Shown: piece by piece, positions 3,094 to 32,481 of the stretch
Layout of the letters: the number at the start of each line of letters is the position of its first letter
Numbering within the stretch: the stretch's first letter is position 1
Assembly: GCA_944322855.1 (NCBI GenBank)
Contig: CALUQG010000018.1
Span: 1-40,187, forward strand
Origin: Candidatus Gastranaerophilales bacterium
GTDB taxonomy: Bacteria; Cyanobacteriota; Vampirovibrionia; Gastranaerophilales; Gastranaerophilaceae
DNA length: 40,187 nucleotides
Direction of reading: 5' to 3'
The notes under the pieces: model-generated
What the model saw: the letters and a program-made list of their open reading frames with translations, nothing else
Database searches by the model: none
What the model was told of the DNA's origin: nothing
Program-made: the position numbers and the translations under genes

Positions 3094-3900
3094 TCATATT
3101 TTAATAATATATCGTTCTGCTTGTTTTTGTAAATCAAGTTTTATTTCAAAGATTTCGGACAGGTTTTTAGAATTCAGGATATCTTCTTTTCTTCCCTGTT
3201 TATAAATCGTCTGGTTGTACATTAATGCGACATGGGTGATTTCGGGGAAAATTTCTTCTATATTATGAGTTACAAGAATAACAGGAACATGTTTTGCGAG
3301 TTTTCTCAAGATTTTCATAAAGCCATACTGTGCTTTTATATCCAAACCTGTTGTCGGTTCATCGAGAATAAAGGCTTCAGGATTGTGAACAAGTGAACGT
3401 CCGATGACACATCTTCTGAGCTGTCCTGTACTCATTTCACAAACTTTTTTGTTTGAAATATCAGTTATTCCCAAAAACTCCAGAACATTTTGTGCTTCTT
3501 TATATTGTGCATCAGTGTATTTTTGGAACTTGTATACACCAAGAGAACTGTGATATCCGCTCAAAACGACTTCTAGTGCCGTTTCTTGTCCTGCATTGCC
3601 AGAAAATTGATTGTGCAGGTTATTTGTAATTATTCCCAATTTTTTTTTGAGTTCAAAAATATCCCATCTGTCTTTTGAAAACAGTTCTTTTTTGAACGGA
3701 TAAGCTGTATTTGGATATAAATCATTTGAGAAAAGTTTCATCAATGTAGATTTTCCGCTGCCGTTTGCTCCGAGTATAACCCAGTTTTCATTCGCATGTA
3801 CTTTTAGATTTATATTTTTTAAGACTGTAGTCATGCCGTAATTTACATACACATTCTCAAAATCTATAATACAATCACGATTGCGCTGTTGTTCAAACAT
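3094..3900 (-). CDS. ABC transporter ATP-binding protein, ModF/YlmA-like
   Basis: A single ATP-binding cassette of 268 aa. Walker A GANGSGKST is at 44-52, the signature is MSTGQLRR, Walker B is AFILDEPTTGLD, and the switch His lies in VTHNIEEI. The overall pattern, with VILGANGSGKSTLMK followed by the long pre-signature region, resembles the YlmA/ModF group, whose members are often found without a permease. None is encoded nearby, so the transported substrate, if any, cannot be told. It heads the operon that continues into acpS and the TPR gene. A weak GGAA precedes the ATG. The ATPase call is certain; a transport role is only assumed from the family. Confidence 0.85.
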   Translation of the reverse strand: MFEQQRNRDCIIDFENVYVNYGMTTVLKNINLKVHANENWVILGANGSGKSTLMKLFSNDLYPNTAYPFKKELFSKDRWDIFELKKKLGIITNNLHNQFSGNAGQETALEVVLSGYHSSLGVYKFQKYTDAQYKEAQNVLEFLGITDISNKKVCEMSTGQLRRCVIGRSLVHNPEAFILDEPTTGLDIKAQYGFMKILRKLAKHVPVILVTHNIEEIFPEITHVALMYNQTIYKQGRKEDILNSKNLSEIFEIKLDLQKQAERYIIKI

Positions 3901-4411: not shown

Positions 4412-4686
4412 AAAATAAAAAGGCTCAGCTAAGCTGAGCCGTCGGAATGAAAATTTCTTTTGCATTCCTCGCCATAGTGAAGTGTGTGAAGTGTGTGAAG
4501 TAAATAAGTAAATGAAGTAAGTAGTAAGTTTTTGTTAAGTCTTTTCTGTATCTTTCTGATACTTTGTTTTCTCTTTTTCTCTAATATCAATTTATGTGGT
4601 GGTTTAACCGTTTTCATTTAACCTGTACAGTTAACTGAAACGTGTCTTTGTTTTATCTTTTCTCTGCTCTGTTTTATATCTCTCGT
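4412..4686 (-). ncRNA. Candidate small RNA, copy A of a two-member family
   Basis: The minus strand reads, in order: 5' box ACGAGAGATA (4686-4677), an A/G-rich stretch, a low-structure tract with TTACTTATTTACTT and CACACTT repeats, CGAG, a hairpin GGAATG...CATTCC, GACGG, and a terminator stem GGCTCAGC/GCTGAGCC (4422-4440) followed by TTTTTATTTT. The same order is found at 32309-32481. The length is about 275 bases. The 62-codon ORF inside it is not conserved in the other copy, so I treat it as non-coding. Its function is unknown. Confidence 0.65.
4422..4440. terminator. Terminator of candidate small RNA A
   Basis: An 8-bp perfect stem with a 3-base loop (GGCTCAGC TTA GCTGAGCC on the minus strand) is followed on the minus strand by a T-rich run. 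It is a classic rho-independent terminator for transcription on the minus strand. Confidence 0.9.
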
Positions 4687-4721
4687 ACTTATATAAAAAA
4701 TTTTCTTTCAAGAAAATTGCC
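4687..4721 (-). promoter_or_regulatory. Promoter region of candidate small RNA A
   Basis: On the minus strand GGCAATT begins exactly 35 bases before the ACGAGAGATA box, with a TATATA-type -10 in between. The copy at 32274-32308 has the same GGCAATT at the same distance and the same kind of -10. The -35 element does not resemble TTGACA. Confidence 0.55.
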
Positions 4722-4790: not shown

Positions 4791-5456
4791 CTATTTTTTT
4801 AAAAGTCTCAAAACCTTGTCAAACAAGGCATTAAATACAGTTTTATATCTGGCGCATTCGGGGTCTAAAAGATATAATCGGCCGTTTTTAGATATACCGA
4901 TTTGATGAGTATCGTAATCAAAAAAATCATATGCTTTGTATCCGGCAGATTTTATCATATCTTTTACGGTATCAACCCAGTACACAGGCATATCATGCTG
5001 AAATAGTTTTTCTTCAACATAAAAATGTGTTTTGCGGCTTTTGCCATGCAAATAGACAGGTACATCAAAAATTTCAATCGGTCTGTTCAGCGGAAAATGG
5101 TTTCCGTTGGTGAGTTTTATCACTTTACCGTCTGCGGTATCAAAGACCATCGCACTTGTGCCATAGCCGCTGAGTTTTGTAACTTTGCGTTTTAGTATTT
5201 TATTTGTGTCTTTTTTTCGTGACAAATCTTTGATAAACCTCGAGACTATGTCCTTTTCACCTGCCAGCCCACATTTGAGTTCTTTTGTTTCTATTGTATC
5301 CAAAAGGGCTTGTTTTAGAGTAACAGGTCTGGAATAAGTAATCAGAAGCACACCTGTATTTGTTTTATCAAGAACAGGTGCGCATTTTCTATTATATTTT
5401 TTGTTTTTTTCTATAATTTTTTGAGGATTGAGATTTGTTATATTTTGAATTTTCAT
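4791..5456 (-). CDS. Protein kinase-like (APH/Hop fold) protein, lineage-specific
   Basis: A 221-aa protein that looks like a minimal protein-kinase fold. A Gly-rich turn (SGYGTSAMVF, 96-105) is followed by KVIKLT (Lys 114) at the place of the ATP-binding lysine. A hinge-like HFYVEEKLF is at 144-152, then DTHQIGISKNGRLYLLDPE (182-200), in which His 184 and Asp 198 sit where the catalytic-loop and metal-binding residues of kinases fall. The helix between them is short and the usual catalytic-loop Asp is not obvious, so it may be a pseudokinase or a small-molecule kinase relative. No Shine-Dalgarno sequence is seen; a TATAAA box lies about 13 bases before the ATG. It stands alone. The fold assignment is by eye and tentative. 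Confidence 0.55.
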   Translation of the reverse strand: MKIQNITNLNPQKIIEKNKKYNRKCAPVLDKTNTGVLLITYSRPVTLKQALLDTIETKELKCGLAGEKDIVSRFIKDLSRKKDTNKILKRKVTKLSGYGTSAMVFDTADGKVIKLTNGNHFPLNRPIEIFDVPVYLHGKSRKTHFYVEEKLFQHDMPVYWVDTVKDMIKSAGYKAYDFFDYDTHQIGISKNGRLYLLDPECARYKTVFNALFDKVLRLLKK

Positions 5457-19645: not shown

Positions 19646-20650
19646 TTAACTGAAGTAATTTTTTAGACTTTTAGTCAAATTGTTATTTTTGCACAATTTT
19701 TTGAGCTTGCTTATGGCACGGTTTTCTATCTGTCTGATACGTTCACGAGAAACCCCGTATCTTGAGCCTATTTCTTCAAGCGTTTTTCTGTTTCCGTCAT
19801 CGTTTAGTCCGTATCTCATTATTAAAACATCACGTTCTTTCGGACTGAGCTGATTGAGCATTTTTTGAATATCTTCAAAAAGATTTTCCTGTGAAACTCT
19901 GCTGTCGGGAGACATTGTTGATTCGTCAACTATAAAATCCCCCAGTTTTGAAGATTCATCTTTTGCTGTGGCAGGAGTTTCTATACTTATTGTAGATTGA
20001 GCGGCTTTTATTAAAGATGTAAGTTTTGAAACAGGTATACCGACTCTGTATGCAATTTCTTCTTTTGAAGGAACTTTGCCGGATTCTGTTGTTAAATCAA
20101 CCGTGACTTTTTTAATTTTGCTCAATGTTTCAATCATATGAACAGGAAGTCGGATTATTCTGGATTTGTCAGCTATGGCTCTGGTTATAGACTGTTGAAT
20201 CCACCATGTAGCGTATGTAGAAAATTTGTACCCCTTTGCATAATCAAATTTTTCCGCTGCTTTCATAAGCCCCATGTTGCCTTCCTGAATTAAATCAAGA
20301 AAAGAAAGACCTCTTCCTATATATTTTTTTGCAATGCTTACAACAAGACGCAAATTAGCATTAACAAGAGTTTCTTTTGCTTCATCATCATTTTTTTCTT
20401 TGATTTTTTTTGCGACTTCAAGTTCTTGTTCTGCACTTAGAAGGGGGATTTTTCCTATTTGCTGCAGGTAAATTTTCACAGAATCATCTGCACTGACAGA
20501 AGAAGCATTTTCTGCAGTTTTGGGTTCCTCAACTGAAAGAAGCAAATCTTCGTCTTCCGGTTCTTCATTAATTTTTTCTATAGATAACTCAGCATCAGTT
20601 TCATTATTTTCAATATCTTCTTCGCTGAATTTTTCTGTTTTCCGTGCCAT
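19646..20650 (-). CDS. RNA polymerase sigma factor, sigma-70 group 2 (RpoD-like)
   Basis: A 334-aa sigma-70 factor. Region 1.2 is at [26 protein letters not shown]. Region 2 has [21 protein letters not shown] and the -10-recognising stretch [20 protein letters not shown]. Region 3 starts at [12 protein letters not shown] and region 4 ends with the helix-turn-helix [18 protein letters not shown]. Region 1.1 is replaced by a short acidic tail. A second, more typical primary sigma factor lies behind dnaG at 27.1 kb, so this one is probably a group 2 alternative factor of the kind common in cyanobacteria, used in stress or nutrient responses. rlmB lies 27 bases upstream in the same direction. Confidence 0.9.
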
Positions 20651-25187: not shown

Positions 25188-27091
25188 TGAATGGAACTAC
25201 TTATCAAGACGTCGTCTTGCAAATAAAAGACAGATTAGACATTGTTGATGTCATATCGAAATATGTTATCCTGAAAAAATCAGGGGGAAACTACTGGGGG
25301 TGCTGCCCTTTTCATAATGAAAAAACTCCATCTTTCAGTGTGAGTCCTGCAAAACAGATTTATAAATGTTTTGGCTGCGGTGAAGGCGGAGATGTTTTAA
25401 GCTTTTTGATGAAAATAAACAACCAGAGTTTTCATGAAGTGGTGAAAGAGCAGGCAGAACTTTTAGGTATAGAGCTTCCTTCATCATTTGATAAATCTCA
25501 GGGTAACAAAGATACCAAGGCATTGATTTATTCTTGTATGTCAGATACAGCAGAGTTCTTTAAAAATAATCTTCTGAAGGACAAAAATTCTGCTGCATAT
25601 ATGTATCTTAAATCCAGAGGCATCACCGATGAAAATATAGAAACATACCAACTCGGGTTTGCTTTGAATTCATACGATGAGCTGCAGAAGCATCTAAAAG
25701 AAAAATATTCTCAAGAAATTTTGGATAAAGCCGGTCTTGTAATCAAGAGAGAGAATAATGCCGGATACGTAGACAGATTTAGAAACAGGATAACAATTCC
25801 GATTTTTGATGACAAAGGCAATATCGTAGCATTTGGCGCAAGAGCTATTGAACAGGGGCAGAATCCAAAGTATCTTAACTCCCCTGATACTATAGTTTAC
25901 AACAAGAGTCATATATTATACGGACTGTATCAAGCCAAAGAAGCAATTAAAGAAAAAGATGCAATAGTAATAATGGAAGGGTATTTTGATGTAATATCCG
26001 CTCAGGTTAATGGTGTGAAAAATGCTGTAGGAGCATGCGGTACTGCTCTTACGGAAAGTCATGTAAAGCTTATATCTAGATATACACAGTCCAGAAGAAT
26101 TTATCTTGCATTTGATACTGATAAGGCCGGACAAAATGCAACAAAAAGAGGTGCGGATGTCATTAAAGAGGCTTTTTCCGGATTGGGAAACATAAAACAG
26201 TTTGACGAAAATTTTACATCAATATCAGGTAATCAAAACCGCTATTCTTGTGAATTGCGAGTTGTTGTTCCTCCTGAGGGGAAAGATCCCGATGAATTTA
26301 TCAGAGAAAACGGAGCTGAGGCTTACCAGAGAATTCTGGATGATGCGCCGCTTTTAGTAGATTTTCAAATTAACAGCATCTTAAAACAAAAAAGGAATGA
26401 CATGTCTCCGCTTGAGAAGAACAATCTTGTTAAAGAGCTTATTCCGTATCTCAGGGAGATAAATAACAGCATTATACGTGATGAATACATCAAAATTGTA
26501 TCTTCAACACTTAATATCAATGAGAACTCATTGAAGACAGAATTGAAAAAGAGTCTTTCTGACAGCTTTTATGAAGTGTCAAAACCCATAGAAAAAAAAC
26601 AGCTTGTTCCGATTGTAAAGAAATCTTTAAATATTTCTGAAAAAGCGCAAAAAAATTTATTGTCGATGTATTTAATAGACGAAAGCTCCTACAACATCCA
26701 AACATTAAACAGTATTTTAAAGGATGTGGAATATACAAACGATACGTTAATAATTGTAAAAAATACAATTGACAAATTGTCCCAACGGGTAAATAATGTT
26801 AAAGAATTAATCGAAACCCTGTACACAGAATTTGCCGAGGACTATGAAGTCAAAGATTTAATTACAGATTTGATATATTTATCCGACAGTTTTAAAAATT
26901 TATCGGACAGAGACTTTAAAAATGCTATTAATGAGAATATAGCCAAGATAGAAGCTTTTAAGGAAAAGGAACGGCAAAGTCATCTGAGGTCTCAATATAA
27001 ACAGCTAAATGATGACGAAATTGAAGCAATTCAAATACAAATGCAACTAAGAGAAAATATAAAAAACAAGCTAAGAACTGGAGACAATTAA
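25187..27091 (+). CDS. dnaG: DNA primase
   Basis: DnaG makes the RNA primers for lagging-strand replication. The N-terminal zinc-binding domain has the Cys/His cluster of the CHC2 type ([31 protein letters not shown]). The RNA polymerase core with TOPRIM fold has [14 protein letters not shown] and [16 protein letters not shown]. The C-terminal ~130 residues are the helicase-interacting domain and are poorly conserved. A short extra loop of about 20 residues sits before the [14 protein letters not shown] motif. At 634 aa the length is normal. Its stop codon overlaps the start of rpoD (TAATG), the widely conserved dnaG-rpoD pair. Initiation is probably leaderless. Confidence 0.96.
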
Positions 27092-28173
27092 TGAGCAGAA
27101 AAAGAATGTCAGACAAATCACTCGTTAGCATAATCGATGAAGATGAACTTCAAGATGATGATACAACCGGTGATGATTTATTTAGCGAACCTGAAACTAT
27201 TACAACTGACAGCATTGATGTAATCATCGGTAAATCAGGCTCAGTTGCTGCAGATGAAATTTATATGCAATCATCGGATTCTGACGATCTCGATTCTGAA
27301 GATGAATCACAGATAGCAGTTCCAAGAGGTGTATCTTTGGATGACCCTGTCAGAATGTATTTAAGAGAAATCGGTCGTATAAAACTTTTGACAGCAGATG
27401 AAGAAATTGATCTTGCAAGAAAAATTATCCAAGGCGGAAATGTCGGTGCAATAGCTAAAAGAAAACTTGTTCAAGCAAATTTAAGACTGGTTGTTTCTAT
27501 TGCAAAAAAATATGTTGGAAGAGGAATGTTGTTTCTTGATTTAATTCAAGAAGGCAATCTGGGTTTGATACGTGCTGCTGAAAAATTTGACCACGAAAGA
27601 GGTTATAAGTTTTCAACTTATGCTACATGGTGGATTAGACAAGCAATAACAAGAGCAATTGCTGATCAGGCACGAACTATCCGTATTCCTGTTCACATGG
27701 TTGAAACTATTAATAAACTTAAAAAAGTTACAAGAAAACTGGCTCAGGAGCTTTCAAGAAAGCCAACCGAGGATGAACTTGCTCAGGAAATGAATATTTC
27801 TATCTCTAAACTCAGAGAAATTATCAAAGTGGCTCAAGAACCTTTGTCATTGGAAACACCTATCGGAAAAGAAGAAGATTCAAGACTCGGTGATTTTATC
27901 GAAGACAAAGATGCGGATGCTCCTGTTAAAACTGTTGCTCATGAGCTTTTGAGAGAAGATCTTGCGGAAGTGTTGAGCGGTCTTTCTCCGAGAGAAAGAG
28001 ATGTTTTGAGACTTCGTTTCGGTATGGATGACGGACGTCAGAGAACTCTCGAGGAAGTTGGTCAATTGTTTGGTGTTACAAGAGAGCGTATCAGACAAAT
28101 CGAAGCAAAGGCGCTCAGAAAACTCAGACATCCAAACAGAAGCAAACGCTTGAGAGAATATGTCGAAGTTTAA
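27091..28173 (+). CDS. rpoD: Primary RNA polymerase sigma factor RpoD (SigA)
   Basis: The principal sigma factor, 360 aa. An acidic N-terminal tail of about 80 residues stands in place of region 1.1. Region 1.2 is [22 protein letters not shown]. Region 2 has [22 protein letters not shown] and [20 protein letters not shown], which opens and reads the -10 box. Region 3 starts [15 protein letters not shown]-like ([15 protein letters not shown]), and region 4 ends in [20 protein letters not shown]. The C-terminal [18 protein letters not shown] is the typical ending of primary factors. It overlaps dnaG and is followed by a strong terminator. Confidence 0.95.
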
Positions 28174-32240: not shown

Positions 32241-32273
32241 GTTAAGAGATGTTAAACAAACTTTATCCAAAAA

Positions 32274-32308
32274 GGCAATTATTTAAAAGATAAATACTTT
32301 ATATATAT
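32274..32308 (+). promoter_or_regulatory. Promoter region of candidate small RNA B
   Basis: GGCAATT begins 35 bases before the 5' box ACGAGAGATA, and a run of TATATA occupies the -10 position. The same two elements with identical spacing precede copy A on the other strand. A GTTAAG...ATGTTA block further upstream is also similar in both. Confidence 0.55.
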
Positions 32309-32481
32309 ACGAGAGATACAAAGAGAGAGAAAAAAGATTTAATAAATTAAAAAATAAATTTTTTAACTAATACATACACACTGACCTACCACACTAACCT
32401 ACACTTACACTTACTTATTTACTTACACACGAGGAATCAAACAAGATTCGACGGGAATTCATTACGAATTCCCTTTTTTTT
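32309..32481 (+). ncRNA. Candidate small RNA, copy B of a two-member family
   Basis: In order: ACGAGAGATA (32309-32318), an A-rich stretch, ACTTATTTACTTACACAC (ending at 32430), then GAGGAATC, a hairpin GAATC/GATTC (32434-32438/32445-32449), GACGGG, and a terminator with 8-bp stem GGGAATTC/GAATTCCC (32453-32473) and eight Ts. The order and several exact blocks match copy A. The hairpin stem differs by a compensatory change (C-G here, G-C there), which argues for a selected RNA structure. No start codon with a ribosome binding site and conserved reading frame is seen. Confidence 0.7.
32453..32481 (+). terminator. Terminator of candidate small RNA B
   Basis: An 8-bp perfect stem with a 5-base loop, GGGAATTC ATTAC GAATTCCC, is followed by eight Ts: a strong rho-independent terminator for the + strand. 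Confidence 0.93.

Follow-up and report, generated by a model that had tools for sequence, protein, structure and literature searches.

The window, i.e. the whole stretch of 40,187 nucleotides analyzed here, belongs to a Candidatus Gastranaerophilales genome of 2.0 Mb in 33 contigs (G000), from which some 0.8 Mb of sequence was drawn in stretches, and carries two similarly built loci, copies A and B, whose coordinates are collected in Table 1. Copy A is flanked by the genes for a 221-aa protein (4791-5456) and an ABC ATPase (3094-3900), and copy B by a rhodanese-like gene and a TPR gene. Every element described in a first-pass annotation of this DNA is present in the window at both copies. The common order is GGCAATT, TTTATATA, ACGAGAGATA, a purine-rich 5' part, a nearly G-free tract, a hairpin and a terminator, and the distance from GGCAATT to ACGAGAG is 35 in both, in agreement with the annotation. 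The hairpin given there as GGAATG/CATTCC has this form in A, with 6 bp and an inner helix, but B has only 5 bp (GAATC/GATTC). Each copy possesses its own predicted promoter and its own intrinsic terminator in an intergenic place, as looked for in trans-acting small RNAs (sRNAs), and, as read from these signals, is an independent transcription unit.

Table 1. Coordinates of the two sRNA loci and of their elements in the window
Feature	Position	Strand	Basis or remark
sRNA copy A (A-type), ~275 nt	4686-4412	-	presumed start ACGAGAG to terminator end
GGCAATT, presumed -35 of A	4721-4715	-	GCAATT-N17-TTTATATA genome sites
TTTATATA, presumed -10 of A	4697-4690	-	GCAATT-N17 spacing; N18 at background
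ACGAGAGATA, predicted 5' end of A	4686-4677	-	sequence
Upstream direct repeat GTTAAGTTATGTTAC of A, 10-bp period, HLR1-like, presumed OmpR-family regulator site	4764-4750	-	
G-free unstructured tract of A, repeated ACUU/CACUUCAC	4540-4474	-	longest G-free run, minus strand of window
3' hairpin GGAATG...CATTCC of A	4468-4444	-	outer pairs kept in all relatives, inner covary
Intrinsic terminator of A, GGCTCAGC-TTA-GCTGAGCC + T run	4440-4412	-	sequence
sRNA copy B (B-type), ~173 nt	32309-32481	+	near-identical copy C elsewhere in genome
B-locus elements including GGCAATT	32274-32481	+	same order as copy A
Upstream direct repeat GTTAAGAGATGTTAA of B	32241-32255	+	sequence
Promoter GGCAATT-N17-TTTATATA of B	32274-32305	+	presumed promoter by sequence
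Nearly G-free unstructured tract of B	32366-32430	+	sequence
CTAACCT, presumed base-pairing seed of B	32394-32400	+	present in 26/27 B-type RNAs
3' hairpin GAATC-AAACAA-GATTC of B	32434-32449	+	inner pair C-G
Intrinsic terminator of B	32453-32481	+	sequence

The annotation had counted two copies, but the genome contains three, as well as further kinds of sRNA on the same promoter. Copy C (C3:2996-2791, minus strand) is 99% identical to B over the unit, and the flanks of B and C show 51-56% identity, the level of unrelated DNA in that alignment. Within a genome, B-type copies share 99-100% identity (L003 and window 32274-32481; L065 and L066), and copies from most other species differ; G019 is an exception, its B-type copies being only 72% identical. 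Near-identity within a genome together with unrelated flanks points to either concerted evolution or recent copying. The same pattern, and the observation that several assemblies end at B-type copies, would fit a mobile repeat, and the unit might otherwise be an attenuator-type leader of the downstream gene rather than an independent RNA. We consider both very improbable, because the unit ends in its own terminator, the flanking genes vary between copies and genomes, neither a transposase nor a target-site repeat was noticed, and the promoter, the upstream box and the covarying pairs are kept over ~29 genera.

Distribution of the RNA family

The annotation had proposed a covariance-model search among Gastranaerophilales. 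Such a search, with two models that exclude the promoter (R1, made from the 3' parts of B-type RNAs, and R2, from those of the A-type), did uncover further homologues: R1 matches 143/192 genomes of the order (window match 32371-32481), and R2, which was built partly from copy A, 118/192 (window match 4413-4513). Nearly all matches lie within one bacterial family, spread over about 29 genera. In a sample of 292 genomes of the phylum, R1 matched 109, all of them members of this same family, and two weak matches come from other families within the order (G038, G029).

Beyond the genus, the matches have lower scores (E about 1e-12 to 1e-4). Because of these lower scores, and because the models exclude the promoter, the promoter can serve as an independent check on them: with 1 mismatch, it lies upstream on the same strand in 36/36 of the best out-of-genus matches, whereas the opposite strand gives 4 and the downstream side 6. 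Most RNAs from other genera measure 122-185 nt, and the family as a whole ranges from about 120 to 275 nt.

No window match reaches the gathering score in Rfam 15, consistent with the earlier claim that the family is unnamed; permissive searches gave only chance matches (snoRNA, miRNA etc., E 0.4-10), far below the gathering scores. The titles and abstracts listed for Gastranaerophilales, Melainabacteria and Vampirovibrionia contain nothing relevant on small RNAs or transcriptomes. By homology this is apparently a new, undescribed family, and by kind it is apparently a small regulatory RNA.

Structure and coding potential

Among the 31 A-type matches, covariation amounts to 0.389 compared with 0.152 in shuffles, a value that 0/500 shuffles reach and that also exceeds all slid versions; this alignment was fitted to the model and thus leans toward structure, and the freely aligned A4 gives the same sign. 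Pairing is retained in 96% of its cells, and 12 pairs change on both sides. Most of the structural change lies in the terminator, where both partners differ among relatives in 9/12 pairs; the hairpin is less variable. The inner hairpin pair is C-G in B, G-C in A-type RNAs and U-A in other genera; an anchor-based count over 72 rows, of which about 7 had picked up the terminator rather than the hairpin, gives G-C 31, C-G 19, U-A 18 and U-G 4.

As the annotation had stated, there is no shared reading frame: none is kept across relatives. Conserved structure is found without a conserved reading frame, another property looked for in trans-acting sRNAs. Copy A does contain open frames, by which the RNA could be a small messenger for a short peptide, either MARNAKEIFIPTA... 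or a frame of 62 codons whose start lies 72 nt past the -10 box. This reading was rejected as highly unlikely, since the ATG is missing in several relatives (L012, L026, L028, L031, L044, L052), hairpin loops differing by 1-2 bases break the frame, and B has no comparable frame. The homologues in ~29 genera, the covarying pairs and the absence of a conserved reading frame uphold the non-coding RNA family that had been proposed, and by these sequence criteria A and B are almost certainly genes of a small regulatory RNA family.

Promoter class and regulon

The GGCAATT/-10/ACGAGAG arrangement had been taken for part of the RNA-family architecture; it is rather a regulon-wide promoter/start module, standing mostly before protein genes. 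GCAATT-N17-TTTATATA occurs at 34 exact sites in this genome, most of them ahead of protein genes. At <=1 mismatch the genome has 58 sites compared with 4 for the reversed control, and the N18 spacing, which served as the spacing control, stays at background (11 vs 5). The longer module GGCAATT-N28-ACGAGAGATA (<=2 mismatches) has 6 occurrences in this genome, where its reversed form has 0, and is present in 33/40 relatives, with few matches of the reversed form. A slightly wider form, GCAATT-N17-TTTATWWA, yields 18-29 sites vs 0-2 in four genomes of other genera of the family. A first search with CGAGAGATA had also hit the same start ahead of a ribbon-helix-helix (RHH) gene, and the module likewise precedes RHH genes, genes of the coiled-coil MGF/MGY type and those for short peptides that end in GNNFIA, among others. 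Promoters of this class precede >20 protein genes, as well as additional small predicted transcripts that end in a terminator. The 17 bp that separate GCAATT from TTTATA fit a sigma70-type promoter, from which we infer a start at about ACGAGAG. The promoter is common to the sRNAs and some 30 other genes, which the sRNAs may in turn regulate by base pairing. A-type bodies are located behind a B-type promoter spacer in L012 and L027, and promoter and RNA body seem to recombine.

A GTTAAG-N5-GTTAAG direct repeat (1 mismatch, <=90 bases upstream) accompanies 21/30 promoters of the class, compared with 11% of random AT-rich 90-mers and 4.0 +- 1.8 of 30 in shuffles. For many of the boxes the distance to the following GCAATT is 32-35 or 43-44 bases, two positions that differ by one helical turn. 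The cyanobacterial sRNA PsrR1 is under the response regulator RpaB in a feed-forward loop (PMC13421787), and the HLR1 site of RpaB is KTTACAWW-N2-KTTACAWW (PMC13421787; PMC9241938). The RNAs described here resemble PsrR1 as trans sRNAs of the same phylum with an upstream 10-bp-period direct repeat similar to HLR1 and a possible feed-forward logic. However, the half-site is GTTAAG instead of KTTACA, and sequence, structure and presumed targets differ. GTTAAG-N5-GTTAAG resembles but is not HLR1, and a relation to the RpaB/HLR1 regulon is possible.

This genome encodes 8 sigma70-family proteins and 3 OmpR-type DNA-binding domains; two RpoD-like sigma factors are located in the window (27091-28173 and 19646-20650). 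Pfam analysis of nine regulon proteins returned only RHH_1, for a 62-aa regulator, the others being without a match above the curated cut-off. The regulon (L150-L179, L311-L370) contains many short proteins without such a match where tested; the short proteins comprise coiled-coil MGF/MGY, ...FGGLMA, ...GNNFIA and YAIFTMRKLQLTQRINQ types, in addition to three RHH paralogs, and all of these possibly share one function.

Further putative small RNA kinds were noticed on the promoter. RNA D (L152, G000 C2:151287; L170, G000 C9:61625; L356 and L357 in G181) is present as two nearly identical copies per genome, and two genera retain its CACTAACCTACCTAACTTCCTAACCTTCCCTTCC or sequences close to it. 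The short RNA E carries CCACACACGAGGAATAA or ACCACGAGGAAA (L055, L354). RNA F is a short terminator-ended predicted transcript, GAAAGCTCTCTCTTCTTATTT (L169, G000 C8:12582; L341; L353), complementary to the AAGAGAG motif of regulon leaders. RNA G, also short, has a recurrent ACTAGACTAA motif (L054, L060, L071) that is found as well in untranslated parts of other regulon genes (leaders L078 and L173, 3' part of L004).

Proposed base pairing with regulon leaders

The most conserved unpaired element, a presumed seed, is CTAACCT, the single conserved core of the B-type tract, which is present in 26/27 B-type RNAs. As CUAACCU it is the exact complement of AGGUUAG, and AGGTTAG occurs in 10/70 co-regulated leaders of four genomes vs 6/662 other genes; the corresponding p of 1.7e-7, for 144 7-mers tested, is optimistic because the 662 background leaders are from this genome only and the 70 regulon leaders come from four genomes and are related. 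In this genome alone the numbers are 4/24 vs 6/662 (p 2e-4), and AGGTTAG is the commonest among its 210 letter permutations. Most occurrences are near the 5' end or precede the start codon by 3-5 bases, where pairing could act; the enriched motif could instead be a start-site or ribosome-site feature.

Copy B surpasses its shuffled versions in pairing with regulon leaders (1/100 and 1/200 shuffles reach its level), in a background where some complementarity to a G-free tract is expected from the purine-rich leaders. In whole-tract RNAduplex tests only B beat its shuffles, and A, D and most relatives did not; a test of the longest complementary run gave a mixed outcome. For A-type RNAs, no target with supporting evidence was found by the pairing tests or by comparison of the MGF leader. 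The 12-nt match of A to the leader of the MGF gene corresponds to 10-12 nt in three genomes and 4-7 nt in three others, and was rejected as a conserved pairing.

Alternatively, the RNAs could be sponges for, or targets of, other sRNAs of the regulon, with their GA-rich 5' part (AAGAGAG) pairing with the CU-rich short RNA F (GCUCUCUCUUCUUAUU). Among the leader 7-mers, AAGAGAG shows the strongest enrichment (14/70 vs 6/662), and it complements an RNA F segment seen in three genera. We regard this reading as quite improbable, since a purine-rich leader is to be expected around ribosome sites, F pairs with leaders better than its shuffled versions in only 2/3 genomes, and RNA F is itself only predicted.

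Hfq and CsrA

Hfq was not found in four genomes, by a model that responds in only 5/14 control genomes, E. coli and B. subtilis among them, so that a very divergent Hfq could escape it. CsrA was not found in two of the four (G043 and G087), both of which keep the RNAs. With Hfq not found in four genomes and CsrA not found in two, the family presumably cannot depend on these proteins throughout. A dependence on Hfq was rejected on the former ground.

CsrB gathers several copies of CsrA, and the present RNAs share with CsrB/RsmZ the repeated single-stranded motifs and the several RNAs per genome. They differ in that each has about one GGA (tract and hairpin counted) and in their retention where CsrA was not found; for these two reasons titration of CsrA was rejected. 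In a more general form, the repeats ACUUCAC and ACUAACCU could gather several copies of an RNA-binding protein, the hairpin being a stability cap. The tract is repetitive and unstructured, its length drifts while its composition stays, and A-type RNAs lack a convincing target, all of which would suit such a role. Yet no candidate protein is known, the CsrA and GGA data apply here too, and the B-type core is kept base by base in 26/27 RNAs, which is more than composition needs. We consider protein titration unlikely.

RsaE/RoxS and FsrA are Gram-positive C/U-rich base-pairing sRNAs that are mostly not Hfq-dependent. The family shares with them a presumed independence of Hfq, an unpaired pyrimidine-rich motif facing purine-rich leaders, and a 3' terminator. 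It differs in having the motif within a long G-free tract, in its several near-identical copies per genome, and in the absence of an Rfam match.

Discussion

We tentatively conclude that the RNAs act as Hfq-independent base-pairing sRNAs, a leading mechanism to which we assign a probability of about one half and which the seed and pairing analyses support for the B-type. Transcription would start near ACGAGAG, presumably by an alternative sigma factor that is often aided by a response regulator of the OmpR family at the GTTAAG-N5-GTTAAG box, and the sRNAs and mRNAs of the regulon would be switched on together. The exposed tract would base-pair without Hfq to the leaders of part of the regulon, with CUAACCU on AGGUUAG at the leader 5' end or at the ribosome site. 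Co-activation and pairing would then constitute a feed-forward loop, and the hairpin and the terminator may shield the 3' end.

A more far-reaching and rather doubtful extension of this mechanism is a large regulon without Hfq, where a single alternative promoter class would drive the sRNA families (A, B, D, E, F, G) plus their own mRNA targets, and in which matching seeds and leader motifs (CUAACCU/AGGUUAG, CUCUCUU/AAGAGAG) would have evolved as a code.

We found no description of a regulatory RNA or promoter class for these gut relatives of cyanobacteria, which are common and uncultured. The present analysis yields a family-wide RNA family for them and a sharply delimited promoter class, GCAATT-N17-TTTATATA, of which each genome has about 20-35 members. 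The seed/target pair CUAACCU/AGGUUAG is concrete and testable in metatranscriptomes without culturing. If true, the base-pairing mechanism would indicate how a lineage without detected Hfq organizes its sRNA control.
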